From: Spirogloea muscicola
Lineage: Eukaryota; Streptophyta; Zygnematophyceae; Spirogloeales; Spirogloeaceae
Direction: 5' to 3'
Length of the DNA stretch: 32,197 nt
NCBI GenBank assembly: GCA_009602725.1
Contig: WELB01000064.1
Coordinates: 330,364-362,560 of the forward strand
How positions within the stretch are numbered: position 1 is the stretch's first letter; each line of letters starts with the position of its first letter. The notes beneath the pieces are model-generated. The model was not told where the DNA came from, searched no databases, and saw only the letters and a list, made by a program, of their open reading frames with translations. Positions 61-23,997 of this stretch are shown piece after piece. The translations under genes were made by a program, and so were the position numbers.

Positions 61-414
61 TGGTCAAGCAAGGTGAGCACCGGTCTGCACTACTGCGTCG
101 TCGTTGCGGACTGTCTTTCGTGACAACTGGTGTCACTGAACCACTTACCGCCTCGTTTCTCCTTCAAGCCAAGCGCTGCCTGAAGCGAATGCTCACAATC
201 ATTGATGGGAAGCATCCGAGCTTCGAAAAGGACGTTGAAGCCTGCCAAGCGAAGTACAAGCACCTCGACAAATCCTACAAGGAGGAGAAAGGAAGAGGGG
301 CACGAGTGGCGAGGCGGCATCAACTCTTTGCGGCAATGCAGCCCAGGTCGTTGACATCATCAACTTATATCCGGGATCGAAGCCTAACGTTAGCACTGCG
401 GCACATCTTGACAG
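61..414 (+). pseudogene. SANT/Myb-like gene remnant, short arm of palindrome M1
   Basis: This is one of two convergent copies of the same gene in palindrome M1. It starts just before a 5' splice site (TGGTCAAGCAAG, then GTGAGC at 73). A GT-AG intron spans about 73-168. The second exon encodes KHPSFEKDVEACQAKYKHLDK, then after a frame change GEAASTLCGNAAQ and GSKPNVST. The KYKRLDKSYK-type segment resembles the third helix of SANT/trihelix DNA-binding domains (inference from pattern). A few bases are missing after the acceptor relative to the other copies, and at least one frameshift separates the two halves, so it is not functional as read. The first SANT helix, present in the long arms, is absent here. 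Confidence 0.55.
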
Positions 415-487
415 CGTCGGGCTTCCGCCGACTGATCGAGGCCTCCTCCCTGGGCGCCATGCCCGGAAGATCCATCGAGGGACCCCC

Positions 488-1020
488 GCTGTCAAGATGC
501 GTTGTTGTGCTGACGTTCGGCTTCGACCCCTAATACGAGTCGATGATGCCAAATAGCTCGGCCGCAGTGCCGCAGAGAGTGGATGCCGCCTCGCCGCTTG
601 TGCCCCTCTTCCTTTTCTCGTCCTTATAGGATTTATCGAGGCGCTTGTATTTCTGCCGGCAGGCTTCCATGTCCTTGTTGAAGCTCGGATGCTTCTCGAC
701 AATGCTTGTGAGTATTCGCTTCCACTCAGCCAGCGCTTGGAAAGAAGGAGATTAGAGGCGGTGAGTGGTTCAGTGACACTGGTTGTCGGGAAGAACGTCT
801 GCAACGATGACGCAATAGTGGAGACCAGTGCTCACCTTGCTTGACCACGCCGCTCTTCTTGGCCAGCTTGGTGGCTTCTTCAGCTACTTCTGTCAATTCT
901 ATTTCGGCTTACCACAACCTTATCCCCATTTATAGAACCATTTGCTTTAGCGTGTAAGAGCTTTGACTACCCACTCATGTCTTTACGAGCCCCTGCCGTC
1001 ATCGCCGGGGTTGCTGCCAA
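488..1020 (-). pseudogene. SANT/Myb-like gene remnant, long arm of palindrome M1
   Basis: This is the best-preserved reading frame of the SANT-like gene. On the minus strand exon 1 ends LAKKSGVVKQ (to 836). The intron is about 835-736 and the acceptor has slipped to CAAG. Exon 2 then reads in one frame ALAEWKRILTSIVEKHPSF, NKDMEACRQKYKRLDKSYK, DEKRKRGTSGEAASTL, and runs to IIDSY. There a TAG at 532-530 replaces the glutamine codon seen in other copies. Further upstream (about 1020-945) the block RHEWVVK is recognisable but broken by a TAA and an extra base. About 70 bp absent from copy M2 lie between, with a CTATAAA string (minus, 936-930). The domain assignment is pattern-based. A role as transposon-linked DNA-binding protein is inference. 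Confidence 0.6.
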
Positions 1021-1306
1021 TGGATTATAGTATCCCCTCCGTCGGGCCGGCCCTCCAGGGCTGGGCCATGGAGCGACCCTCTACACACCCTCGGGTATTT
1101 GTGTATTTGTTTTTTCGTGTATTCGAAAGAAACGAATTTCACAATGGCCAAGAATAAAGGCAAGCACATGTTATGAAGTACATCACCAACTACACATTGA
1201 CCCGCTCAATGACCACGGGTCGATACACGAGAAGTGCTTGGGAAGGGTGGCACGTGAAGCACTAAAAGAAATGAGCCGAGACGGGACTCAGGAAACTGTA
1301 GCAGTG
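1021..1306. other. No recognisable gene
   Basis: This spacer lies between palindrome M1 and the segmental duplication. I see no coding signature, RNA gene or clear retrotransposon end. Confidence 0.5.
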
Positions 1307-1990
1307 ATGCCCAGCGAGAGACGCAGCTCTGCTGCTGCCTGCTGCCGCAGCCCGTCGCTGCAGCTCACTGCCGGCACTTCCTCGAAGTAAATCAGAATGT
1401 CTCCGGCCCTTGCGGAAACACTTGCTACTTGTGTACAAATGGAAGAGTCACCGCCTGCCGGTGGTGCTTCAGGGCAGGACCTCCGCTGCTGTGTGCGCTG
1501 GCGCTTGATTATGTAGGAGATTTTGCCACTAGAATTTTCTGTTTCCAAATCCCTATCAGGACTACGCTATTACTTTGGACTGCGTGTGCAGCGTAGGGTC
1601 ATCACACAGGTACTCTCTTCCGGAAGGCGTCATGGAGAGGAGTCTTGTAATATTGCCTTTTCTGTGCCATTCCAGACCTTGTCCATTTCTTTTAGGCTGG
1701 CCTCTCACAGTCATCTCCTCAGTCTTGAAGGAGCTGCTCATGTTCCCCTGCACCGCTTGTCGCCAGCTAACCTGGCCAACCCGTTCCACCCACATCAGGC
1801 AGTGTGTCTAACATGGGCAAGCACGAGAATCGTCTGTGGCATAGTCCCTCCAGACCGCAATGGGCAGCAAACCATATTTTGGAACCCCGACCGGCCTGTC
1901 CACAATGTTGCAGTACACCCCGTGCAGTACGCCCGGCATTGCATTCACTCTGGTTGGCAACAGACAGTCTGTTTCTGGCTGCAGGATAAG

Positions 1991-2187
1991 AAAAAAGCGC
2001 GGCCGAATTGACTGGTGGCTGGGAGAAGCCAGCCCAAAAGGAATGGACAAGCTCAAGAGGAGCCGAATGGCGCAGAAAGCAGGGGACTAAGTGCTAAGAC
2101 GACAAGGAGGCTCTCAGTAACCTCTAGTCAGCAAGTGCAGGTCAGAATAGCTAGAGGGCGGGAAGACGTCGCCTGTCGCCCGTCGAG
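1991..2187 (-). mobile_element. Retrotransposon 3' end (T2/e4), filled site
   Basis: Read on the minus strand this gives GDVFPPSSYSDLHLLTRGY-stop. A short UTR follows with CTTGTCCATTCC, the hairpin GGGCTGGC-TTCTC-CCAGCC, ACCAGTCAATTCGGCCGCGC and a T-rich end. Its limits are set by the homologous site in copy 2 of the duplication, where AGGATAAG runs straight into CTGCAGTTC (around 13951-13965). There is no clear target-site duplication; at most AG is shared. Confidence 0.8.
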
Positions 2188-2600
2188 CTGCAGTTCCCCT
2201 CCTTGGAATTCCAGCTCACAAGGCTTTTGCCACCAATGCAATACCATTTGCCGCTCAATCACGCTGTGCATGTTACGACCTTTGCAGTCAAGGAACTTAA
2301 GTTTACAGGCGGAAATGAGCCACCCCTGGCGGAAGCGGGAGGCGGCAGCCAAAGCGTGGGCTCCCCGCTAGTGGATAGCAAACGCCAAGGAACGCTGCAG
2401 GAAGATGGCATGGCGCATGCTGTACGCCCACACCAAGTAGGCAAGGCCCAAGGTAGGATTTGACAGGTCGCCTGAGCAAGTAGTGCGAATTCATAATGTT
2501 GAAGGTAATGAAAATGATTGCTGTTCTGAAGGTATCTTCACTGACTGTACTCAGTGTCCTGTTGCGCCTATCCAGAAGCACCTTCGTAAATTTTCATCCA
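2188..2600 (-). pseudogene. Degenerate retrotransposon C-terminus (copy 1)
   Basis: Minus-strand translation gives SMRHAIFLQRSLAFAIH, an in-frame stop, then AHALAAASRFRQG. This matches the block RMRLAVSLQRSLAFAVHLRAGRALAAASGFRQG of the better copies. Upstream, LLAQATCQ fits the LLxxLARQ segment. The terminal peptide appears to be KLKFLDCKGRN instead of SDLHLLTRGY, so this may be an older, divergent family. Stops and shifts show it is dead. It is shared with 13960-14330 and so predates the duplication. Confidence 0.45.
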
Positions 2601-3221
2601 GACACAGCACGATGGTATACTATTATAGCAGAATTTGCAGTTCAGAAGTAACGTAGTGAGCAACTTTTGTAGGAATCCCCTTAAAAACGTTGATTCATTG
2701 AGTTCACGTTCTGCAAGCCCAGTGTCTTTTTCGTAGTAGTCCATAATACCTGACACCACAGCTCGATCACAGCCTAGGAATGAATATAGTGTGAAGATCT
2801 TTACAGCTGGCTTGTTGTAAACTTCCGCTCAATAGCTTTTAATTCAGCAAGTGCAGACCAAAATAGCTAGATGGCGTCTTTCCTCCCAAGGATTGAGCTC
2901 CTTTTAGAGGAGCGAGGGCTGTGAAAAAACCAATCTGTGCCGTGCTTGACGTCTTGCTGGCATTCCTCGTCCAGACCAGACAGCGGACCCAGGCTGCAAG
3001 AGAATGGAGCACAGCCGACTTGTACTCACCAGGCTGATTGGACAACTGCAGTGCGAGTATCCACAGGAGTAAATAGATGGAAGCTGTTTACAGCAGGCAC
3101 TGCTTCCTGCAGCAGCAATTTGATTGCTGTACAGTGTCCAGGTTCGGAAGCTTCCACAGAAATCAACTTCGATGGGTTTTGGTCCACCTAAGGGCTATCA
3201 GATTACTCAATAGCACAATTG

Positions 3222-3722
3222 TCAGCTGTCCTGCGCTGGCGAGGTGGGGCGGGCGGTTGAAGCCGGCGGCTCAGGCTCAGGCGGCGGCGGCGGGGGGGCG
3301 CGGGCGCCCACCGTCGGGTAGCGGCACTTGGAGTCTCTATGCGCGACTCTGGCCGCCCACCGGTACTTCCTGACGGTGCCGTCGCAGAAGAAGTCGGGGC
3401 GGTTCTCCGCGTAATCGCACAGGGCGCGCGCAATACGGGTGACCTCCTTGTCAGAGTACCCAAACACGTCCCGACACCACGCGACGAAGGCCGCGAACTC
3501 GGCCAGGCCGAGGCGGCCGGACCAGCCCCCAAGCCACTCGTCGTATGCGGCGTTGCTGCCGTCCGTGGCGTAGGTGAGGAACTCGATGAGGGCGTCGAAC
3601 GCCTCCCCCAGCGCCTCCGCGCGCTGCAACCTGCGACGCAACCACTCGTCCTGCGCGGGCCCGATGGGGGGGCCGCCGTCCCCCTCGTCGTGGTTGTCGT
3701 CACGGGCGGCGCGCTCCGCCAT
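3222..3722 (-). CDS. Unrecognised GC-rich ORF (166 aa)
   Basis: The minus-strand frame from ATG at 3722 reads MAERAARDDNHDEGD, then a charged, partly helical region (DEWLRRRLQRAEALGEAFDA, later WCRDVFGYSDKEVTRIARAL). It ends in a proline-rich tail (PPPPPPEPEPP) before a stop at 3222. The frame is open further upstream to 3815. The amino-acid mix is plausible for a real globular domain plus disordered tail. I do not recognise a family, and there is no visible promoter or intron. It lies between the segmental duplication and the GC-rich module and may belong to another mobile element. Confidence 0.4.
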   Translation of the reverse strand: MAERAARDDNHDEGDGGPPIGPAQDEWLRRRLQRAEALGEAFDALIEFLTYATDGSNAAYDEWLGGWSGRLGLAEFAAFVAWCRDVFGYSDKEVTRIARALCDYAENRPDFFCDGTVRKYRWAARVAHRDSKCRYPTVGARAPPPPPPEPEPPASTARPTSPAQDS

Positions 3723-3989
3723 CCGGCGGCACGGCGGCAAGGCCCTCCGCGGCGGCGGCGGCAGCGGCGGCAGCGGCGGGCAGCGCCTCGACACGCGTGC
3801 CACGGGAGGGAGCACGGCGCCGGGTGGGTGAGTAGAAGAACCTGGAAATGTTGCGGCACATCAAGTTCTAAAGCGAATGGTGGAACGCCTTGCATGCATG
3901 CGTCATCACGCGACACCGTAGGAGGTGCGGCGGCTGTGCGCAAGCGGGCGGCGTGGGGGAGCGCCGGGCAAGGCGAGCATGCAGGCGGG

Positions 3990-5485: not shown

Positions 5486-6320
5486 GAGACCACCCAGAGG
5501 TATATGTTCTGATTATTATTGTATTTAGTATTATTAGTCATGTTGTTTCTACCTTCTCACGTAAGCTGTCTTTGCTTACTTAGGTATGGTATATGCACCA
5601 ATCAGTATCCTAGTTTTAGGTTTTATTGTAGGGGCTCACCACAATGTTTACAGTGGTGTTAGATGTAGATACTCGTGCTTACTTTACTGCTGCCACAATC
5701 ATCATTGCAGTACCAACAGGAATCGTTGTTAGTTAAATTGCTACTGTGTGGGGAGGTTCCATTGAGCTGAAAACACCTATGCTATTTGCTGTAGATATTT
5801 TCATCTTATTTACTATAGGACGGCTAACGGGATTTGTATTAGCTTACTGCAATTTGTATATCGTTTTGCATAATACTTACTATGTAATAGCCCATTTTCA
5901 TTATGTTCTTCTATGGGAGCTGTCTTTGCCTTATTCGCAGGATTCAATTATTGGATCAGGGAATATTTCGAGTCTTCAATATCAACGAACTTTAGGTCAA
6001 ATCCATATTTGGAGTACTTTTGTGGGTGTAAATTTGACCCTTTTTCCTATGCATTTCGTAGGACTTGCAGGTATGCCACGTCATATATCAGATTATCCAT
6101 ATGCATTTACGCCATGGAATGCCCTTTGTAGTTTCGGTTCTTATGTATCTGTAGTAGGTATTCCACTGTTCTTTTACATAGTATACCTGACTCGGAGTGT
6201 TGATAACAAATGTGCTGCTAGTCCCTGGGGTACACAAGATAATTCTACTACCATAGAATGGATGGTACAGAGCCCTCCAGCATTTCATACTGTAGAAGAG
6301 ATAACAGCTATCAAAGAGCT
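5486..6320 (+). pseudogene. cox1: Nuclear mitochondrial insertion: cox1 fragment
   Basis: This is the C-terminal half of cytochrome c oxidase subunit I, the haem-copper catalytic subunit of mitochondrial complex IV. Recognisable blocks in order are [123 protein letters not shown] and [12 protein letters not shown]. It is broken by at least four frameshifts (near 5568, 5643, 5912 and 5960) and by a TAA at 5734-5736 where tryptophan is expected. It is AT-rich against a GC-rich surround. Most tryptophans are TGG. The [12 protein letters not shown] segment is typical of plant and green-algal COX1, which is my main taxonomic clue. Confidence 0.92.
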
Positions 6321-7200
6321 CTGGAATGTGTTCTCGACCTATGTAATTGCTGCATGTGTGACGCGCAACACATGCTCACGCTGTCTTACAGAATATTGCA
6401 ACACCTCGGCTGAGGTATAGGGTCTGGTCGAAGAATGCATGCACGTGTTGCTAGATTGTTCAGCTCCCCACACTAGATATTGATAGCACATCAAGAGCCT
6501 CACTCCCACATCAATCAGAGAGCCTCAATCAGAGTCCTAGTATTCAGATCGATGGACTCGACATCTAGAATAATCTGTCGCAACAATTCTTCACCATTTG
6601 GGTCCTCACGTTCCATCTACAGATTCAAGATGCACCTTTGCATACACCTGACCTCGCAAAAGTAGGCGATTCAGATGCCAAGGGAACCATCGCCGCCAGA
6701 GAAGCTTGGGGCAGTTCATCACTCTAATGTAGTCAAGTTGGGTGCACAAAGGATGCAGCCGACTGGCGAACCTAGAGATTGGTACCTTCTATCGCTCGCG
6801 CTACAAGGTGCTTCCACTGACTCATCCCTCACTTGAATTCCTGAGAGTGCTCAGCTATTACCAAAAGGTGCATTGGCAAGACTTGGCTGCACTAGCGAGG
6901 GCGTCCCGGCAATTGCAGCTCATATGAGAGAGTGCTGATACATGAACAGGAAAGCCATCCTTCAGAAGGCCCAGTCCCTGGACAGCCGCAGTCGGTAGGG
7001 CAGCTGCAGCTGGTGGCTGCCATGGCAGCAGCTGACATGCCGGACGCAGCCTGCGACAGCGGCACAATGCCTCGCCGCCAATGCCAGCGCTACCAGCGCC
7101 AACAGCGCCAGCCGGCGGGGTCACTCTAGCGCGAAGGGGCACAAAGCCGATGCGCATCCCCGACCGCAACTTGGACGTCCGGGAGCAGCAAGTGCGGGAC
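6321..7200. other. No recognisable gene
   Basis: This AT-moderate sequence follows the cox1 fragment. It has a small direct repeat (TCAATCAGAG twice at about 6513-6533) and short open frames without family signatures. I cannot assign it. Confidence 0.45.
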
Positions 7201-7229
7201 AGTGGCGGAGGCGCAGGAAGAAGCAGCCC

Positions 7230-7282
7230 AATTGAAGAAGGTGGCTGAGAAAGGCCAGCCCAAAAGAAAGGACAGGCAGGCA
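7230..7282 (-). mobile_element. Possible 53-bp retrotransposon 3' end
   Basis: The minus strand carries TTTTGGGCTGGCCTTTCTCA then GCCACCTTCTTC, a hairpin-type terminus. A 7-mer GCAGCCC occurs at 7223-7229 and 7283-7289. No clean empty site is available, so the duplication could be chance. Confidence 0.4.
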
Positions 7283-7733
7283 GCAGCCCCGGCGATGACG
7301 GCAGGGGCACGTGGAGACATGAGTGGGTAGTCAAGCTTGTACACGCTAAAGGAGCCGCCGATCTGGCCAAGAAGAGCGGCGTGGTCAAGCAAGGTAAGCA
7401 CCGGTCTTACACTATCGCGTCATCATTGCCGACGGTCTTCCTCGACAATAGGTGTCACTGAAGCAGTTACCGCCTCTTGTCAGGCCAAGCGCTGGCTGAG
7501 TGGAAGCGAAGTCTCACCAGCATTGTCGAGAAGCATCCGAGCTTCAACAAGGATGATGAAGCTTGCCGAGCGGTTACAAGCGCCTCGACAGATTCTACAA
7601 GGACGAGACAAGGAAGAGGGGCACAAGCGGCGAGGCGGTGTCAAACCTTCGCGGCACTGCGGCCGAGCTCTCGACATAATCGATTCATATCAGGGGTTGA
7701 AGCCGAACGTCAGCACAACAGCACATCTTGACA
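7282..7733 (+). pseudogene. SANT/Myb-like gene remnant, long arm of palindrome M2
   Basis: Exon 1 (about 7282-7393) is open and reads GDDGRGTWRHEWVVKLVHAK, then GAADLAKKSGVVKQ. A consensus donor CAAG|GTAAGC begins an intron at 7394 that ends with CAG at 7483 (90 nt). Exon 2 continues GQALAEWKRSLTSIVEKHPS, FNKDDEACRA. A one-base deletion near 7575 shifts the frame. The following segment is then in frame as YKRLDRFYKDETRKRGTSGE. Tryptophans in helices 1 and 2 and the KYKRL-type third segment fit a SANT/trihelix DNA-binding domain. This copy defines the gene's 5' part best. It is still a pseudogene because of the frameshift. Confidence 0.65.
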
Positions 7734-7802
7734 GCGGCGGCTGCTCGACCGATCTTCCTGGCATGCTCCCAGGGAGGAGGCCTTACGGAAGAGGAATGCC
7801 GA

Positions 7803-8163
7803 CGATGTAAAGATGTGCTGTGGTGCTAACATTTAGCTTCGATCCCTGATCTGAGTCGATGATGTCGAAGACCTCGGCTGCACTGCCGCGAAGAGTTGAT
7901 GCCGCCTCGACGCACGTGCCCCTCTTCCTTTCTCCTCCTTGCAGGATTGTCGAGGCGCTAGTACTTCGGTCGGCAGGCTTCAACGTCCTTGTCGAAGCTC
8001 GGATGCTTCCTGACAATGGTGGTGAGAATTTGCTTACACTCAGCCAGCGCTTGGCCTGAGGGAGACAAGAGGCGGTGAGAGATAAAGTGACACCGGTTGT
8101 CGCGGAAGATCGTCCGCAACGATGACGCAATAGTGCAGACAGGTGCTCACCTTGCTTGACCAA
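7803..8163 (-). pseudogene. SANT/Myb-like gene remnant, short arm of palindrome M2
   Basis: The minus strand begins CTTGGTCAAGCAAG. The intron runs from GTGAGC at 8150 to CTCAG ending at 8056 (95 nt). Exon 2 reads QALAECKQILTTIVRKHPSF, DKDVEACRPKY, then a TAG and frame changes. Exon 1 helix 1 is missing, as in the short arms of M1 and M3. Confidence 0.6.
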
Positions 8164-8169
8164 GATAAG

Positions 8170-8560
8170 GGGGGTGTTGGTTGCGAGAGGGAACGCGGGC
8201 GGGAGGTGGTCCGACGCGCGGGCGGAGCGGGGCGCGGCTGCCGGTGGCGCCGCGGCGGCCCGGGCGGAGAGGGCCGTNGGGGAGCGCTGATCGGGTGGAG
8301 GGTTGCGGTTGGGCGCCGGGTCCGCCTGCAGGCGGGCTGGGGAGGGGCTGCCCGTTCTTTGTTCATTCTTTTTTGGGCTGGCTTGTCCAACCCCTATCCT
8401 CAATGGGCGAGCCCTTTCTTTCTGCTGCCCGGGCGTGCCGGGCATTTTCAACGCCCTCGAGAACCCCTAGTGGATCGACGGCGTACAGCGGTCCTCGTGG
8501 CGAAATTCGGACGGCTGGGAAAGGCCTGTGCGGTTGCGCTGGCGCTGCCCAAAGAGAGAA
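8170..8560 (+). repeat. GC-rich module, copy G2 (contains an N)
   Basis: This directly follows the short SANT arm. Shared strings with G1 and G3 are TGCGAGAGGGAACGCGGGCG, GCGCGGGCGGAGCGG, GGGAGCGCTGATCGGGTGG, GCCCTCGAGAAC and GGCCTGTG. The N at 8278 lies at the position equivalent to the GGC-triplet run of G3. A 69-bp retrotransposon end interrupts it at 8355-8423. It may be the 5' leader or promoter of the short-arm gene copy (inference from position only). Confidence 0.6.
8355..8423 (+). mobile_element. 69-bp retrotransposon 3' end (e2) with 8-bp TSD
   Basis: The insert runs from TTCTTTGTTCATTC through the hairpin GGGCTGGC and CTATCCTCAATGGGCGAGCC to CTTTCTTTCT. It is flanked by GCTGCCCG at 8347-8354 and 8424-8431. 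The GC-rich copy G3 lacks this insert. No coding sequence is included. Confidence 0.75.
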
Positions 8561-8767: not shown

Positions 8768-9478
8768 GGAAAGAAGGCTCGCCCATAGAGAAAGAGGGGC
8801 TGGCAAAGCCAGCCCAAAAAGAATGGACAATGTCCAAAGCCGAAGAATGAGATGCCGAGGAAGGACTCCTCTACTCTACCAATCACGACAACATACTAAG
8901 GAAGCTCAGTACCCGCGAGTGAGCAACATCAGGTCCGAGTAGCTCAAGGCAGGGAAGGAGGCACTCCGCCGAGACCCGGAGGCAGCGGCCAGAGCGCGTC
9001 CTGCGCGCGTGTGGTCAGCGTGGGCAAGGGATCGCTGGAACGATACCGCCAAGCGCATGCGAAAGACCTGGGCGAGCGACCCGGCAGCGTTGAAGCCGGG
9101 CAGCGCCCCGGGCGGACCCGACCGCCGATCAATAGCCTGACGAGCAAGCCGCTGGAGGAGATCCAGCCAGGCGGCTGCCGAAGGCCCCGTGAACATCTAT
9201 CGCCAGGGCCGCGAACTCATCACCGACCGGGTGATCGGCATATTTTTTCTCTTTTGCCCGGGCTGCCAGGCCTACCGCATGCCCTGCAAACGACGCCGAC
9301 CTGGTGGGGTTGCCGGAGTCGTAGCTGTCCGTTGTCACCACATCAGCGATGATGCGGGGACCGCCGCCGGGCGGGATAGCGACCAGGTCGGCGCGTCGGG
9401 TGTGCGACCGGCCGTCCTCGCCCCGCAGAATGGGCATGACTGAGGAGCACTCCACCGCCACCTTGAAGCCCGCTTGGG
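8768..9478 (-). pseudogene. Endonuclease C-terminus and 3' UTR (T1/e1)
   Basis: Read on the minus strand it starts AGFKVAVECSSVMP and then has the PD-(D/E)XK-like core: HTRRADLV, a glycine-rich turn, IIADVVTTD, and KEKKYADHP. DEFAALAIDVHGAFG follows, and after a frame change WLDLLQRLARQAID, NAAGSLAQVFRMRLAVSFQR, RAGRALAAASGSRRSASF, SYSDLMLLTRGY-stop (ends 8906). The UTR carries GGACATTGTCCATTC, the hairpin GGGCTGGCTTTGCCAGCCCC and CTATGGGCGAGCC near 8768. The acidic residues and lysine expected of the nuclease are present. A frameshift in the middle kills it. Confidence 0.7.
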
Positions 9479-9737
9479 AGCGCTGCAGACTCAATGATAG
9501 CCTCATCCTATAACATGCAACGATGGCTTGCGGGACGATAGAATGGCCTAAGCTACCCGCCCGACTACGTCGGCGGGCATCAACATGCAGTGCCAGGCGA
9601 TGGAGGAGGGCAGACCACTTCGTTCCATAGCCGCCGTAGATGTCCATGGCGCATGGGAAGAAGTGGTCGCCCCGGGGGTGGTCGTTATAGTGTCTCTCCT
9701 TCTTCCTCTCCGCATGATGCGTCGCCCAACCTGGCAC
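9479..9737 (-). pseudogene. Second endonuclease C-terminus, cut by the element at 8768-9478
   Basis: Minus-strand peptides are DHFFPCAMDIYGGYGTKWSA, LLHRLALHVDARRR and CYRMRLSLSLQRSQ. It stops exactly where the neighbouring copy begins (AGFKVAVE), so the two form one chimeric open frame of about 200 codons. The older element lost its 3' end to the younger one, or recombination joined them. Confidence 0.6.
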
Positions 9738-12400: not shown

Positions 12401-12456
12401 GCATTATTCCAAAGCATTGTTGTTTGAACATTTGACCTACCTTTGACGATTATTTT

Positions 12457-12828
12457 ATGCGACTTAGGTCAGGCAAGGTCGTCACGCTGGACGATCAGAC
12501 TATTGCAGAGATGGACAATCAGACAATTGTAGATTTGTTTGACTCTGAATCATCTACATCTGTTGTACCTGAATCTAGTGCAGCTTCAGGCGTTCCACCT
12601 TTGTCGACTCCTCGAGTACGTAGGAGAAAGAACATGGCAACTGGAGATCGGCCCAAATTTGATGGTACTCCAGGTGGGACTTCCTTAGCTGAAGTCAATG
12701 AATACTATACCCCAGAATTATGTGAATTAGATGGCTGTGGTTATGTGGTGAAACGTGATCAGAAGGTGAAATTGCTCGCAAAGTATTTCATGGGACATGC
12801 GGGAGCCATTTTTCGACCGGATCATTGA
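12457..12828 (+). pseudogene. gag-like retroelement N-terminus, left arm
   Basis: The frame starts MRLRSGKVVTLDDQTIAEMD, has a serine-rich stretch, then RRRKNMATGDRPKFDGTPGG. It continues VNEYYTPELCELDGCGYVV and KLLAKYFMGHAGAIF, and stops soon after the inversion breakpoint. The basic start and the following globular part suggest a gag-type protein of an LTR retrotransposon. That call is by general resemblance only. Protease, reverse transcriptase and LTRs are absent. Confidence 0.45.
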
Positions 12829-13273
12829 TTAGTTGCGGTCCTGTCAATTTCTCTGCATCCGATGCTGTCTCTGCAACGGGCACTCTCTTATCCAGGACCT
12901 CACGTTTGACCCGTCGAAATATGGCTCCCGCATGTCCCGTTAAATACTTTGCAAGCAATGTCACCTTCTGGTCACGTTTCACCACATAACCACAGACATC
13001 TATCTCACATAATTCTGCGGTAAAGTATTCATTGACTTCGGCTAGGGAAGTCCCACCTGGAGTACAATTAAACTTGGGCCGATCTCCAGTTGCCATGTTC
13101 TTTCTCCTGCGAACTCGAGGAGTTGACAAAGGTGGAACGCCTGAAGCTGCACTAGGTTCAGGTACAACAGATGTGAATGATTCAGAGTCAAACAGATCTG
13201 CAATAGTCTGATCGTCCAACTCTGCAATAGTCTGATCGTCCAGCGTGACGACCTTGCCTGACCTAAGTCGCAT
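12818..13273 (-). pseudogene. gag-like retroelement N-terminus, right arm
   Basis: This is the inverted copy of the same gene, extending further. After HAGAIFRRVKREVLDK it continues VPVAETASDAEKLTGPQLIN and then runs into the antisense of the left arm. A duplicated DDQTIAELDDQTIADL near the start parallels DDQTIAEMDNQTIVDL in the other arm. It shows the original gene was longer than either arm. Confidence 0.45.
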
Positions 13274-13324
13274 ACAATAACCGACAAAGGTAGGTCAAAT
13301 GTTCAAACAACAATGCTTTGGAAT

Positions 13325-14951
13325 AATGCCCAGCGAGAGACGCAGCTCTGCTGCTGCCTGCTGCCGCAGCCCATTGCTGCAGCTCACTGCCGGCACTTCC
13401 TCGAAATAAAAGAAATGGCTCCGGCCTTTGTGGAAACACTTGCTACTTGTGTACGAAAGGAAGAGTCACCGCCTGCCGGTGGTGCTTCTCGGCAGGACCT
13501 CCGCTGCTGTGTGCGCTGGCGCTGGGTTATGTAGGAGGTTTTGCGCCTAGACCCTTCTACGACCGGACCCCAATCAGGAAGCTATTACTTTGGACTGCGT
13601 GTGCAGCGCAGGGTCATCACACAGGTACTCCCTACCGAGGATGCGTCATGGAGAGGAGTCTTGTAAAATTGCTTTTTCTGGCTATATCGGACCTTGCCCA
13701 AAATGGTCCGCCGCTTTGCATAGTGCACGCTTTCCGCCAGCTGAGCTGGCCAACCAGTTCCGCCCACATCAGGCAGTGTGTCTAACATGGGCAGACTCTT
13801 CTGTGGCATAGATCCTTCAGACGGCAATAAGCAGCAGACCACAATCTGGAACCGCGGCCGGCCCTGTCCACGATGTTGCAATACGCCTAGTGCAGTACGC
13901 ATAGCATTGCGTTCACTCGGGTTGGCAACAGCGAGTCCAGGTTTGACTGCAGGATAAGCTGCAGTTCTCCTCCTTGGAACTCCACCTCACACGGCTTCTG
14001 TCACCAAGGCACTATCATTTGGCTGTCAACCACGCTGTAAGCGTTACGGCCGTTGCAGTCAAGGAACTTAATCTCATGAGCGGAAAAGCGTCACCCCTGG
14101 CGGATCCCGGAGGTGGCGGCCTCCCCGCAAGTGGATAGCTTACACCGAGGAACGCTGCAGGGATATGGCAAGGCGCATGCTATTCGCCCACACCAAGCAA
14201 GCAAGGGCCCCAAAGTAGGAATCAACGGGTCGCCTGAGCAAGTACTGCGACTTCGCACCTTAAGAAGGTGATCAGATTATGCTGTTTATCAGGTGTATTC
14301 ACTGACTTTGTACTTGTGTCCTGTTGGCCCTATCCAGAAGTCACCGTGAATTTTCATAGTCCATTCAGACGCAGCACGATGGGTGTACTATAATAGAAGA
14401 CTAAGCACTCCAGCAGTGATATCTTAAGCAACCTTGTAAGGATCTTCATAGAAAGCTATATAGCGTTCTATGAATTTCTCTGAATTCACGTTCTGTAAGC
14501 CCAGCGACTTTTCTGTAACATTCCAATATACCTGACATCATAGCTCGATCACAGCCTAGAAAAGAGTTGAATATGTGCAGATCTTTACAGCTGGCTTCCT
14601 GTAAGCTTACGCTCAAAAACCTTCTGGTCAGCAAGTGCAAATCAGAATAAGCAGAGGGCGTCTTCCTTCCAAGGGAGTGAGCTCTTTCACCAGGGGGCGA
14701 GGGCTGTTAATGCCAATCTGTGCTGTGCTTGACCTCATGCTGGCTTTCCTTGTCCGGATTAGACAGCGGACCTAGGCTGCAAGAGGCATGCAGACGTGTA
14801 CTCACCGGGCTGATCAGGACGACTGCAGTGCGGGTATCCACAGGAGCATAAGATGGAATTGAAGCTGTTTACAGCAGGCACTGCTTCCTGCAGCAGCAAT
14901 TTGATCGCTGTACAGTGTCCAGGTTCGGAAGCTTCCAAAGATATAAAGTTC
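13325..14951. repeat. Segmental duplication, copy 2
   Basis: This is the counterpart of 1307-3185, beginning ATGCCCAGCGAGAGACGCAG right at the gag palindrome and ending about 14951 at an endonuclease fragment. It preserves the unoccupied site (around 13951-13965) for the 197-bp insert of copy 1. It contains degenerate minus-strand retrotransposon pieces at about 13960-14330 and 14628-14725. Confidence 0.75.
13960..14330 (-). pseudogene. Degenerate retrotransposon C-terminus (copy 2)
   Basis: This is homologous to 2188-2600. The minus strand retains AHEIKFLDCNGRNAYSVV and EVEFQGGELQLILQ with an in-frame TGA between them. The two copies keep the same frame over LLPTRVNAM, which may mean this stretch was once coding beyond the retrotransposon tail. 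I cannot name it. Confidence 0.4.
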
Positions 14952-15235
14952 GAGCCACCGAGCACCCAGCGCCCCGTGTGTGTCGATAGCCAGCGGGAAG
15001 AACTCGTCGGCCGGCGGATGGTCAGCGTACTTCAGTTCTTTTGCCCGAGCGGCGCAGGCGACCGCGTACCCAGCCTTGGTGGCACACTGGGCTGGGTGGG
15101 AGCGGTCGAATGCGTCGGTAGTCACCACGTCCAGGAGGAGACGTGACCCACCAGCTGGAGGGGGGGCCACCAGGTCGACACGACGGGCGTGGAGACCGTC
15201 GGCACTCCCAATGTGGGCAAGGGCTGCGAAAAGTG
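14952..15235 (-). pseudogene. Endonuclease core fragment
   Basis: The minus-strand frame contains LHARRVDLVAPP, LLLDVVTTDAFDRSH, KAGYAVACAARAKELKYADH and DEFFPLAIDTHGALGARWLE, that is both acidic positions and the K of the PD-(D/E)XK-like core. It ends at 14951 in the segmental duplication, losing the C-terminal block and UTR. Its upstream side joins a 3' end of another copy at about 15216. Confidence 0.65.
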
Positions 15236-15239
15236 CTCG

Positions 15240-15512
15240 CCCCTTGGAGGCTAGAGAATGTGCTCGCCCATAGAGAAGAGTGGCTGGCAAAGCCAGCCCA
15301 AAAAGAATGGACAATACCCCAAGCCAAAGAAAGAGGATCCGAAGAAGAACTACACTACAGTCCATGCCTTTGGACAAGGACGAAGACATCAGCCAGAGGA
15401 CGCTCAGTAACCTCCAGTCAGGAGATGCAAGTCGGAGTAGCTAGCCGGGGGAAAGACGTCGCCCTGACGGAAGCCGGAGGCCGCCGCCAAAGCTTGGCCT
15501 GCGCGCACAGGG
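15240..15512 (-). mobile_element. T2 tail with e1 UTR
   Basis: The minus strand encodes RAGQALAAASGFRQGDVFPP, ASYSDLHLLTGGY-stop (ending at 15404). A UTR follows with CATGGACTGTAGTGTAGTTC and the hairpin GGGCTGGCTTTGCCAGCC, ending CTATGGGCGAGCAC at about 15260. It is closely similar to the minus-strand copy at 17336-17670. Confidence 0.7.
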
Positions 15513-15660
15513 AATAGGGGCTGGAAATACCAGCCCAAAAGAGAATGAACAAAGTACGAGAAGGGGGCCAGGCTTGGGGCTGGCTTTTCCAGGGGGAAAG
15601 TAGGTACGTGGCACTCCAAATGGGGGCAAGGGCTGTGAAAAGCCAGCCCAAAAAGAATTG
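15513..15660 (-). mobile_element. Stacked 3' UTR fragments
   Basis: A T3/e2 UTR piece (TTTTGGGCTGGTATTTCCAG on the minus strand, about 15515-15575) and an e3 end (CCCCCATTTGGAGTGCCAC, minus strand, about 15605-15655) are placed next to each other without coding sequence. Confidence 0.55.
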
Positions 15661-15663
15661 ACG

Positions 15664-16495
15664 AGGGCTCGGGCTGCATCGCTGGCAGCTCACATGCTCA
15701 GGTGCGCACGGGGCGGGGAGCGGACAGGAACACACGACTTGCTGCGGAACGCCATGTATGGAATCTTTGTCGAGGCCGGTTACTCGGTGGCGCTCGAGAG
15801 TACCAGCATCATGCCTCCGACCGCTGGGGCGGATGGCCGCGTCCACACCCGGCGGGCCGATCTCGTCGCCAGCGCGCTCGGCGGGGGGCCTCGGCTCATC
15901 GCCGATGTGGTCACGACTGACTGTGTGTCTCCGGCAGCGCCAAGCGATCGTCGGAGGAGGCGGGCTGCGCAGTCCGCCACGCGGCGGACGCCAAGGAACG
16001 TAAATACGCAGACCACCCGGTGGGCGACGAGTTTGTTCCCCTTGCAGTCGACGTACAAGGGGCCTTCGGCGCAAAGTGGCTCGACTTGCTTCACCGCCTG
16101 GCGCAGCAGGCCGCGGCCCGCCGCCACGGGCAGCAGTTCGAGCAGCCCGGCTTCAATGTCGCCGGGTCCCTTGCGCAGGTCTTCCGCATGCGGTTGGCCG
16201 TCTCGCTTCAGCGGTCACTAGCGTTCGCGGTCCACTTGCGCGCAGGCAAAGCTTTGGTGGCGGCCTCCGGCTTCCGTCAGGGCGACGTCTTTCCCCCGGC
16301 TAGCTACTCCGACTTGCATCTCCTGACTAGGGGTTACTGAGCGACCTCTGGCTGATGGCTTCGTCCTAGTCCAAAGGCATGGACTGTAGTGTAGTTCTTT
16401 TTCGGCTCCTCTTTTCTTTGGCTTGGGATATTGTCCATTCTTTTCGGGCTGGCTTTGCCAGCCACTCCTCTATGGGCTAGCACATTCTTCGGAGG
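15664..16495 (+). pseudogene. Most complete retrotransposon endonuclease domain (T2/e1)
   Basis: This is the longest copy of the family. An N-side helix region (AAHMLRCARGG, THDLLRNAMYGIFVEAGYSV, ALESTSIMP) precedes the nuclease core HTRRADLVAS, LIADVVTTD. After one frameshift near 15935 it continues KERKYADHPVGDEFVPLAVD, FGAKWLDLLHRLAQQAAARR, FNVAGSLAQVFRMRLAVSLQ, RAGKALVAASGFRQGDVFPP, ASYSDLHLLTRGY-stop (16338-16340). The UTR runs to a GGGCTGGCTTTGCCAGCC hairpin and CTATGGGCTAGC (about 16475). The D...DVVTTD...K arrangement fits the PD-(D/E)XK restriction-like endonuclease of R2/CRE-type non-LTR elements. The protein would act in target-primed reverse transcription. The frameshift makes it inactive. 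Confidence 0.75.
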
Positions 16496-17035: not shown

Positions 17036-17320
17036 GGGCTTCTGCTGTTGCTCACTCGTGGATACTGAGCATTCATCTGCATCATTCCGTGTCTTGGTGT
17101 GTAGTTTTGTCTTTCTGAGCACCGTTTTGTGGCCTTTGAGGCCTGCGACATTGTGCATTTTTTGCTGGGCTGGCTTTGCTAGCCCTCTCCCCTCGTCCAC
17201 ATGCGAGCGGGCCGTGCTATGGCCGCTGTCTTTGGGTCTCGTCGGAGTGCCTCTTTGTCCATTCTTTTTGGGTTGGCTTTGCCAGCCCCTCTTCTCAATG
17301 GGCGAGCTCTTCTCTCTTTC
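17036..17320 (+). mobile_element. Stub plus UTR units, head to tail
   Basis: A stub encoding LLLLTRGY-stop (to 17067) has a T1 UTR ending at the hairpin GGGCTGGCTTTGCTAGCCC (about 17170-17195). Next is a fragment AMAAVFGSRRSASL without the terminal peptide, joined at CTTTGTCCATTC to another UTR with the e1 end at about 17310. Confidence 0.55.
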
Positions 17321-17390
17321 CCTGCAGCGAGTGAAAGTGCTCGCCCATAGAGAAGAGTGGCTGGCAAAGCCAGCCTAATATGAATGGACA
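17256..17390. repeat. Fold-back of two e1 ends
   Basis: The plus e1 terminus (17256-17310) and its inverted copy (17336-17390) are separated by only 25 bp, which includes CCCTGCAGCGAG from a coding tail. It could form a stem of about 55 bp. Confidence 0.7.
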
Positions 17391-21050: not shown

Positions 21051-21721
21051 GTTTGGAGGGTCGGGCCCGAGCAATTCTCCCGGCCCAGTCTCTCACTCTT
21101 GCAGAAGCTGCCTCGCGCCACCACCGCCGCTGCATTGCCGACGGGCGTCTGTTCGCTGTGCCACGCCAACAGGACGTGAGCCCAAAGGAAACGCAGCAAC
21201 GCAGCAAGTGAGCCATACCCCGAGGGACCTGCAGCCGATTGCACAGGACTGCGCGTATGAAAATGGATTGCACACTTCTGCACCAAAGAAATAAGTTGTG
21301 CTATTGCTCTCATTGCTTGACACGTAGAAGTGCAATATTAGCAGGAGCATCCCGAGAAGATGCCTAGTGCATCGAGGGGAGAGGAACATCGTCTGCTCAG
21401 CCTACTATGGTGTGCCAAACTTGACAAAATGACAAAATCTCAGAGCTGTCCAAACATTTTGCTCTCCCTCGGAAGCAGCAAGGACTCTAGGTGGCTACGA
21501 CTGCACTCCCCATGTAATTTTGCAGGAAGAAGACGACTTTTGGCCCGACATGCATCATCAACAAGAGTCCGATGAGTAGGTTTTTTTTTCATGCCAACCT
21601 GTCATCGCAGCTTTGCCAGAGGCTACTCCTGCCAGTCGAAATCGTCTACCAGCGAAGACAGACTTAGTGGCAACAGAAGGTTCGCTCGGGCATTGCTAAG
21701 TCTCCGGCCAGCTTCAAGCTA
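21051..21721. other. No recognisable gene
   Basis: I see no coding signature or retrotransposon end here. A T9 run is at about 21582. Confidence 0.4.
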
Positions 21722-22282
21722 CAGGAAGACCAAGCTGTGCCTCAGCACATTGTGACTAAGAATGTCACATCGACTCACATAAAGGTCAATCATATCATCA
21801 CTTGTGCTTTGTCCGATAACGTGATACTTATTAAGAAGCACACTGCTACCGTTCATGCCATTGTAGTGCCCGAGGAGAAGTTGCTTGAGATGGGTGCAGA
21901 CCAACCGTGGTATGAAGTTTTCATAGTGCCAGTGGCAGACCCCGGTACCCCCGCGATTACCAAATCTGCTTTTAGGATGATGTCTGCCATACGAGCTCAT
22001 GACGCCATTGTAGCGCATATGGCACGGAAATATCATACTCATATGAACCCAACAGGCCAAAGGTGGAGGCCTCCGGCAGAGAGGACAGAGGTAACGTCAT
22101 ATGTGACGACGATGGACACCACCAGTGAAGTCGCCACAGCTGCAAGCACAGCAAGGCCAGCACTCATGCTCGTAGAATTAGCTGCCCAACCCATTGTGAT
22201 TGGCCGTCGTTCTGCTATGTCGCTGAATCTTGGAGAACATGACTTGTTTCGCAACGATGTACAGATCAAGCCAGCAATTGCA
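21722..22282 (+). pseudogene. Unrecognised coding remnant fused to SANT arm
   Basis: An open frame of about 185 codons starts LQEDQAVPQHIVTKNVTSTH (upstream part possible) and continues NVILIKKHTATVHAIVVPEE, KLLEMGADQPWYEVFIVPV, IRAHDAIVAHMARKYHTHMN. Its amino-acid composition looks like real protein, with a beta-rich first half. It runs without a stop into the SANT arm at about 22283, but in the wrong frame for the SANT third helix, so the fusion looks accidental. I do not recognise the family. A mobile-element structural or integration protein is possible. Confidence 0.35.
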
Positions 22283-22475
22283 TCGACAAGGACGTTGAAG
22301 CCTGCCAAGCAAAGTACAAGCGCCTCGACAACAACTACAAGGAGGAGCGGCACTACAAGAAGGGGCACGAGCGGCGAGGCGGCATCAGTTTCCCGCGGAA
22401 CTGCGGCCGAGCTGGTCAACATCATGGACTCATATCAGGGGTCGAGGCCGAATGTGAGCACAACAGCACAGCTTG
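22283..22475 (+). pseudogene. SANT/Myb-like remnant, truncated long arm of palindrome M3
   Basis: This begins inside exon 2 at CGACAAGGACGTTGAAGCC, so exon 1 and the intron are lost. It reads DKDVEACQAKYKRLDNNYKE in one frame and GTSGEAASVSRGTAAELVNI, MDSYQGSRPNVSTTAQLDSG in another. A frameshift between the two parts is shared in position with several other copies. Confidence 0.55.
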
Positions 22476-22549
22476 ACAGCGGCGGCTGCTCGACCGATCT
22501 TCCGGGCATACACCCAGGGAGGAGGTCTTAGCAAGTCAGGGGAAGAGGA

Positions 22550-22915
22550 AGGCCGACGCTGTCAAGGGGTGCTGTTGTGCTTACGTTCGGCCTCGACTCC
22601 CTGATACGAGTCGATGATGTCGACCAGCTCGGCCGCAGTGCCTCGGAGAATGATGCCGCGTCGCCGCTCGTGCCCCTCTTCCATTGTCCTCCTTTAGATT
22701 TGTCGAGGCGCTTGTACTTCGCTCCGTAAGCCTCAACGTCCTTGTCGAAGCTCGGATGCTTCCTGACAATGGTGGTGAGAATTTTGCTTCCACTCATCCA
22801 GCGCTTGGCCTGAGGGAGACAAGAGGCAGTGAGTGTCAGTAACACCAGTTGTCGCGCAAGACCGTCCGCAACGATGACGCAATAGTACAGACCGGTGCTC
22901 ACCTTGCTTGACCAA
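22550..22915 (-). pseudogene. SANT/Myb-like remnant, short arm of palindrome M3
   Basis: Minus strand: CTTGGTCAAGCAAG, intron 22902-22810 (93 nt, GTGAGC...CTCAG). Exon 2 has QALDEWKQNSHHHCQEASE, with an extra base relative to the consensus that displaces the frame, and then DKDVEAYGAKYKRLDKS. It has the same boundaries as the short arm of M2. Confidence 0.6.
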
Positions 22916-22918
22916 GGA

Positions 22919-23250
22919 AGGGGGAGTTTGGTTGCGAGAGTGGACGCGGGCGGGAGGTGGTCCGACGCGCGGGCGGAGCGAAGCCGCGGCTGCCCGTGGC
23001 CCGGCGGCGGCGCGGCGGAGGGCGGGGCGGCGGCGGCGGCGACGGCGGCGGCGGAGTGGGTGCGGGGAGCGCTGATCGGGTGGGGGGTTGCAGTTGGGCG
23101 CCGCGTGGCGGGCTTACCCGGCCAAGGACGCCCTCGAGAACGCCGGGGGGATCATCGGCGCACAGCGATTGACGTGGCCGTGATCGACGGCTCGGGACGG
23201 CCTGTGAGGTTGCTTGGCGCTGCCCGGGCGCAAAACTTCTCGCCTCGAGG
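22919..23250 (+). repeat. GC-rich module, copy G3 (uninterrupted)
   Basis: This is the complete reference copy of the module. It has GTTGCGAGAGTGGACGCGGG and GGAGGTGGTCCGACGCGCGG, then a GGC/GGA triplet run (about 23020-23060), GGGAGCGCTGATCGGGTGG, CGCCCTCGAGAACGCCGG and GACGGCCTGTGAGGTTG. It follows the short SANT arm as in M2. The triplet run falls where G1 and G2 have an N. Confidence 0.6.
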
Positions 23251-23455
23251 GCGTGTCGTCTCATTTTTGGGCTGGCCTCTCCCAGCCACCGTTGGAGAAA
23301 ATTTCGTTGGGAGAGCCACATTCTCCCAGCCACCGCCCTCTTCTGGAAGCGTCCTTTATTCTGGCTTCCTCTGGCCCCCTTCTCGTTCTTTGTTCATTCT
23401 TTTTTGGGCTGGCTTGTCCAGCCCCTATCCCGAAAAGAACAAACAACTCTTCCAA
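23251..23455 (+). mobile_element. Stacked 3' ends
   Basis: The first unit starts right after CGCCTCGAGGGCGTGTCGTC, with hairpin GGGCTGGCCTCTCCCAGCC. The second terminus is near 23320-23350. The third is a T3 UTR with GGGCTGGCTTGTCCAGCCCC (about 23407-23428), whose end is replaced by CGAAAAGAACAAACAACTC. Confidence 0.55.
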
Positions 23456-23491
23456 TTTATTCATCTTTACGGGCACACGCGAGCAGGCCGT

Positions 23492-23997
23492 GCTATGGTC
23501 GCCTGCGCCGCTCGTGCAAACGAGATCAAGTACGCCGACCATCCGCCGGAAGACGAGTTCTTCCCGTTGGCAATTGACATCCATGGGGCACTGGGCGCTC
23601 GGTGGCTTGAGCTACTTAACCAGCTCGCCCGCCACGCAATCGCACGTCGCTTCCATGGTGAGCCGGTAGACTTTCCTGCAGCCGGGTCGCTGGCGCAAGT
23701 GTATCGCATGCGCTTGGCCGTCTCGCTGCAGAGGTCCATGGCCATGGCGCTGCACCTTCGTGCCGGAAGAGCCCGAGCTGCTGCCTCTGGCTCTGTCCAG
23801 GGGACCCACTTCCAGGACCCTAGCATCTCTGATCTGCGGCTGCTCAGCAGGAATTACTGAGTCATTCGTAGCTGCTTTGTTTCTTCTTGTGCTTGTTTTT
23901 CTTAGCGCTTCCCCTGGCTCCTTTCTCGTACTTTGTCCATTCTTTTTTGGGCTGGCTGTTCCAGCCCCTATCCTCAATGGGCGAGCTCTTTCTTTTC
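23492..23997 (+). pseudogene. T3 endonuclease C-terminus with e2 UTR
   Basis: The continuous frame reads ACAARANEIKYADHPPEDEF, FPLAIDIHGALGARWLELL, NQLARHAIARRFHGEPVDF, AAGSLAQVYRMRLAVSLQRS, RAAASGSVQGTHFQDPSISD, LRLLSRNY-stop (23858-23860). It is 5'-truncated just after the second acidic motif and fused to HTRAGRAMV from another copy. The UTR runs to GGGCTGGCTGTTCCAGCCCC and CTATCCTCAATGGGCGAGC (about 23985). The frame is undamaged over its length but lacks the DVVTTD part. Confidence 0.65.

Follow-up and report, generated by a model that had tools for sequence, protein, structure and literature searches.

What does it mean that a single stretch of DNA holds, three times over, a gene set tail to tail against an inverted copy of itself? 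The question is raised by 32,197 nucleotides of Spirogloea muscicola DNA (contig C64, positions 330364 to 362560; the whole of this stretch is called the window below), for which a preliminary description proposed a palindromic cassette of two convergent, intron-containing SANT genes that might be a non-autonomous mobile unit or a source of small RNAs. The window was compared with itself and with the whole assembly (153 Mb in 471 contigs). The cassette is very probably a defective relic of a PIF/Harbinger transposon, in which a palindrome of the ORF1 gene formed once, was duplicated together with its flanks and has since decayed.

Five palindromes and their common build

Comparison of the window with itself (BLASTN) confirmed the palindromes M1 (61–1018), M2 (7279–8162) and M3 (22280–22914), with M1, as described, in the orientation opposite to M2 and M3. 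Set against their own reverse complements, M1 is 78.4% identical over 801 columns (61–847), M2 79.3% over 799 columns (7382–8162) and M3 79.3% over 487 columns (22280–22751; all BLASTN). The palindrome of M2 stands as first placed, but not its extent, since sequence derived from the parent element reaches, on the right side, to approximately 6969. The features of the three loci are listed here; P4 and P5 are two further palindromes, placed below, and L003 is a single copy of the parent element.

61–421, plus strand: M1 left arm, a partial copy of the same gene in inverted orientation, whose end lies 12 nt ahead of the splice donor
414–422: M1 inversion junction, with imperfect GCCGNCGC microhomology
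422–1018, minus strand: M1 right arm, a degenerate Harbinger ORF1 (Myb/SANT) with exon 1, the intron and part of exon 2, up to the inversion junction
885–947: insertion in M1 exon 1, at the same position in P4 (alignment); by eye like the abundant repeat tail
1018–3779: M1 flank, collinear with the P4 flank and including repeats found elsewhere
5899–6968: M2 flank, with a full-length match only beside P5 (best 40 of 108 candidates) and pieces at a few other places
6969–7224, plus strand: rest of the parent Harbinger 5′ region in M2 (L003 1698–1935 compared with M2)
7225–7278: short repeat-tail insertion in M2, between an imperfect duplication of approximately 12 nt of gene sequence
7279–7802, plus strand: M2 right arm, with exon 1, the intron and part of exon 2
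7803–8162, minus strand: M2 left arm
8163–8350: M2 right flank, common to P5 and, for the first 110 nt or so, to M3 (best 40 of 965 candidates)
21505–22279: M3 flank, common to P5 and approximately 90–92% identical to it, occupying the place expected for exon 1 and the intron
22280–22555, plus strand: M3 right arm, truncated, without exon 1 and intron; its truncation point is that of P5
22556–22914, minus strand: M3 left arm

Three copies had been counted, and a genome search for more with the core and both sides had been proposed. When the core and its surroundings (window 330–520) were searched against the assembly (at least 69 matches), long matches on both sides of the junction were found, among the best 40 of 48 candidates, at five places: M1, M2, M3, P4 (C64:11601–12556, with a junction-spanning match at C64:11873–12060) and P5 (C19:912050–912685, with a junction-spanning match at C19:912322–912517). 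The palindromes are thus upheld and their number rises to five, four on contig C64 and one on C19. At C249, C22, C67:2265 and C121 the matches pass the junction by 7–16 nt, and the remaining matches end there.

The right arm enters exon 2 and ends at a point where the single gene copies continue (alignment); the inverted copy begins at a gene position approximately 67 nt earlier, and its far end lies 12 nt ahead of the splice donor. It is because the two arms stop at unequal points that the core is asymmetric, with an unpaired length of approximately 67–70 nt. The outer end of the left arm is the same in M1, M2 and M3 (61, 8162 and 22914) and consists in all three of 12 nt of exon ahead of the splice donor, in agreement with the earlier statement that one arm always begins just before it. 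The statement that helix 1 is included in M1 and M2 also holds, the exon-1 piece extending up to 1018 in M1, starting from 7279 in M2 and being missing in M3. Against the single gene copies, the M1 right arm gives matches at query positions 3–74 and 137–599. At the join, GCCGACGC on the gene side meets GCCGCCGC on the inverted side, an imperfect microhomology that would fit snap-back or template-switch repair. The two gene copies in each cassette are partial and degenerate. A coding function is unlikely because the reading frames of the M1, M2 and P4 right arms are disrupted by stops, frameshifts or insertions and the right arms of M3 and P5 are truncated.

Exon 1 is broken, or carries an insertion, at nearly one spot in three palindrome lineages (7225–7278, 1018 and P5 in L002), for which the position in the parent is L003 1924–1935; this may go back to a single event or to a favoured site. 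The abundant short repeat tail, GGGCTGGC...CCAGCCCC...ATGGGCGAGC, is found at 19 places on one strand of the window (e.g., 17265–17324) and also on the other strand, and by eye forms of it also sit as insertions in the first exon of M1 and P4 and next to M2. The window holds a further palindrome (12401–12820 and 12910–13329, with 420-nt arms of 93% complementarity and 89 nt between them), which is better preserved than M1 to M3 and has no match to M1 among the M1-query matches listed. Repeated open reading frame fragments occur at 9132–9737 and 14814–15389 on the minus strand and at 15658–16221 and 22895–23857 on the plus strand, with a by-eye motif in common (RADLVA..DVVTTD..KYADHP..F.PLAID.HGA.G). 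A Pfam search of the fragments at 9132–9737 and 22895–23857 gave no match; the fragments are reminiscent of the endonuclease end of non-LTR retrotransposons.

The PIF/Harbinger parent and its Myb/SANT gene

The gene of the palindromes comes from a PIF/Harbinger DNA transposon with two genes, of which it is ORF1, the Myb/SANT-like one. ORF1 of PIF/Harbinger elements of the Ping/Pong type is Myb-like, and these elements have terminal inverted repeats and a 3-bp TWA target duplication. Mobility takes two element proteins, ORF1 and TPase (PMC2836001).

With M1 as the query (at least 114 matches, best 40 of 58 candidates), non-palindromic single copies of the gene are found at a minimum of 35 places on 28 contigs when the matches are clustered at 1 kb, a count that leaves out the five palindromes, exon-1-only pieces and opposite-strand pieces of the same stretches. 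Copies with a single arm had been named beforehand as the observation that would speak against copying of the palindrome as such. They have indeed turned up at these places, at least 35 in number, but do not contradict it, because they are copies of the parent transposon's own gene. In the fuller single copies L007 and L009, the SANT gene is on one strand and a transposase gene lies downstream on the other, both with stops; a Myb-like gene together with a DDE transposase is characteristic of PIF/Harbinger transposons. Against Pfam Myb_DNA-bind_4 the spliced protein of L009 scores 28.3 bits, just above the cut-off of 27 and with the splice point set by eye. For DDE_Tnp_4 (cut-off 24.8 bits) the transposase frames of L038 on C161 and L033 on C67 score 110.4 and 100.1 bits, respectively; C161 has no SANT match of its own among the M1-query matches listed. 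Genome-wide there are 51 matches to DDE_Tnp_4, and one transposase gene has an open frame of 441 aa.

The fuller copies thus resemble PIF/Harbinger elements in pairing a Myb/SANT-like gene with a DDE_Tnp_4 transposase gene that reads the opposite way, whereas the palindromes differ from these elements in having neither the transposase nor the 3′ half of the element and in their truncated ORF1 copies. Of the 35 single SANT places, 20 have a DDE_Tnp_4 match no more than 3 kb away and the other 15 have none in that range; within 10 kb of the palindromes it was found at none of the five. A tblastn query made of the L038 transposase minus its first 100 residues matches L007 (best piece 70% over 186 aa) and L009, and has no match in the window, P4, P5 or the extended M1 region. 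The palindromes accordingly lack the transposase gene of autonomous PIF/Harbinger members. The 5′ region of the parent is kept in M2 and P5, ending approximately 50–80 nt short of the 5′ start shared by the single copies (L003 1628), and the 3′ half of the parent is gone in all five palindromes.

Comparison of the two sides of each of eight parent loci (short BLASTN) gave no convincing terminal repeats. In 5 of 34 stretches (L003, L005, L009, L014 and L016) there is a 3′ motif resembling GTGTAAACAGGCCC with TCA or TAA directly after it, and a motif search of the 34 found no 5′ end to match it at the expected side; extra matches of this type, one in the M2 stretch and one of 5′ type in L012, far downstream of the gene, both look like chance.

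Some single copies are themselves rearranged: L010 (C31) is a Harbinger copy with its own inverted rearrangement, and in L009 (C49) and L029 (C48) one segment of ORF1 is repeated three times in tandem. The single copies L006 and L024 differ very little across the stretch compared. HSP70 matches in the genome group as three or four similar places each, which suggests a polyploid or haplotype-containing assembly; because of these HSP70 sets and the near-identity of L006 and L024, some of the 35 single places may be homoeologous or allelic and not separate insertions. Chlorophyll-binding protein gives 68 matches in the genome, which points to a photosynthetic organism.

Hairpin RNA and the question of silencing

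The expectation that a transcript of the cassette would fold into a long hairpin is borne out by RNA folding: M1 61–847 has a predicted energy of −570.7 kcal/mol, compared with −275.1 on average (sd 7.5) for 20 shuffled sequences (z −39.6), and a single gene copy of that length does not stand out (z −1.3). In maize, Mu killer is a partial inverted duplication of mudrA that is proposed to act by way of hairpin or antisense RNA (PMC3440606). The S. muscicola palindromes resemble it in being inverted partial duplications of a DNA transposon gene that could in principle give long hairpin RNA, and they show the hallmark of this type, a transposon gene in extended inverted duplication whose RNA is predicted to fold. 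The likeness is one of architecture: Mu killer copies the transposase gene, retains two terminal repeats and has silencing shown for it (PMC3440606), whereas here it is the Myb/SANT gene that is duplicated and the arms are some 17–21% diverged.

RNA from the palindromes could in principle feed silencing of the parent transposon. The reading that they act in the manner of Mu killer, with read-through hairpins processed by Dicer into siRNAs against the Myb/SANT gene of the fuller Harbinger elements, would be in keeping with the contrast between the fold of M1 and that of a single gene copy and with arms that are 82–88% identical to their closest single copies. A pathway for small RNAs is plausible, since the genome has Argonaute-like matches to the Piwi domain at four places and Dicer-like pairs of RNase III matches at three; a search for RdRP gave no match in this genome, nor in any control genome, and so is not evidence of absence. 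TAG codons in the Piwi matches raised the idea of a recoded TAG, which was dropped since most HSP70 matches are without a stop. What weighs against the silencing reading is the state of the arms. Identity between arms of the same copy averages 0.819, compared with 0.815 between arms of different copies, and among 120 pairings the true one ranks 25th; with same-copy arms no more alike than cross-copy arms, pairing is not visibly maintained, and the divergence of approximately 17–21% within one copy points the same way. We regard the reading as improbable, and give slightly less credence still to its extended form, in which a repeatedly duplicated hairpin locus feeds RNAi and silences Harbinger, as Mu killer does its target, through ORF1 instead of the transposase.

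Probable copying of one palindrome with its flanks

Less survives of the proposal that the palindrome is a non-autonomous mobile unit. MITEs and foldback elements have an inverted-repeat architecture derived from a DNA transposon, as the palindromes do, and a unit of that kind driven by a Harbinger transposase could draw on the five copies over two contigs and on the transposase genes of the family elsewhere in the genome, one of them open for 441 aa. However, neither element ends nor target duplications are seen in the palindromes, whose transposase gene and parental 3′ half are missing and which stop short of the shared 5′ boundary; the five copies found stand against at least 35 single-copy places; and the outer ends, at which no clean insertion edge is seen, run into flanking DNA that is common to copies on one or both sides. 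The collinearity of M1 and P4 continues for approximately 2.8 kb beyond the palindrome on the exon-1 side, where 1028–1113 was matched only by P4 and nearly the whole of 1018–1320 by P4 only, the other matches falling on an abundant repeat within it (both among the best 40 of 840 candidates). Beside M2, 5899–7231 has a full-length match only beside P5 (best 40 of 108 candidates), and approximately 0.77 kb beside M3 was matched only beside P5, at 90–92% (best 40 of 5913 candidates). The exclusivity of these flanks is not exhaustive because it refers to the best 40 candidates in each case, of 840, 965, 5913 and 108. Since flanks are common to copies, the palindromes look like passengers of larger duplications, not like a mobile unit, and the fact that the copied blocks exceed the palindrome fits duplication of a neighbourhood, not transposition of a cassette. 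The mobile-unit reading is largely refuted by the common flanks and missing parts, and we consider it very improbable. A degenerate fragment of mitochondrial cox1 lies at 5746–6417 of the window (Pfam COX1, 100.4 bits), part of it inside the block common to M2 and P5.

That the palindrome formed once and was then copied had been proposed from three copies, and five bear it out. In alignment the junction and the outer breakpoint are identical in all five. An insertion in exon 1 is common to M1 and P4; a 1-nt deletion in the core is common to M2, M3 and P5 and absent from the four single copies aligned; and the truncation point is common to M3 and P5, so that the derived changes nest as ((M1,P4),(M2,(M3,P5))). 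It is this combination of common junction, common outer breakpoint and nested derived mutations that argues for a single origin.

The arm tree (39 rows of arms and single copies, with stretches in which less than 180 nt of the query was matched left out) has too little resolution to show if the two arms stem from one element. Neither the left arms nor the right arms form a group. The left and right arms of M3 and P5 are joined at an unstarred node with support 87/90, a pattern compatible with conversion between arms in this lineage or with noise from the right arms of M3 and P5 (205 nt). The constraint that unites all ten arms is not rejected (p-AU 0.136), nor are those uniting the five right arms (0.129) or the five left arms (0.176), though the tree itself does not show one origin of the ten. 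Holding together the two arms of M1 alone is rejected (p-AU 0.040), as expected if the arms parted earlier than the copies; the equivalent constraint is not rejected for P4 (0.058) or M2 (0.156).

Independent formation of the palindromes, several times over, from two Harbinger copies tail to tail at a hotspot might be read from the ungrouped arms and from the rearrangements, inverted or tandem, that L010, L009 and L029 carry in this gene. It is nonetheless rejected as scarcely credible, because junction and far breakpoint agree in five of five and the insertion, deletion and truncation nest neatly. Finally, an assembly error behind the joins is unlikely, because the identical join recurs at five separate places on two contigs.

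The reading of the palindromes as relics of a single rearrangement can be put as a sequence of steps. The Myb/SANT gene (ORF1) of one ancestral Harbinger element would have been cut in exon 2 and joined to its own inverted partial copy through the imperfect microhomology GCCGNCGC, in the style of snap-back or template-switch repair; this rearrangement of ORF1 would have removed the transposase gene and the 3′ half; and the palindrome locus would then have been duplicated with flanking DNA at least four times, after which the copies decayed. The repair mechanism, the agent of block copying and the absence of a function are what we infer, and the palindromes are most likely transposon debris.

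Among the open-access titles listed, none concerned an inverted duplication of a Harbinger Myb gene, which does not prove that none exists. What was introduced as a two-gene palindromic cassette becomes a traceable rearrangement of a known transposon type. Small RNAs from it, if detected, would make it a naturally occurring silencer of the inverted-repeat kind, directed at a Harbinger transposon and open to direct comparison with Mu killer; in their absence, it would be a clean case of a transposon gene that became palindromic a single time and then travelled with larger duplications.
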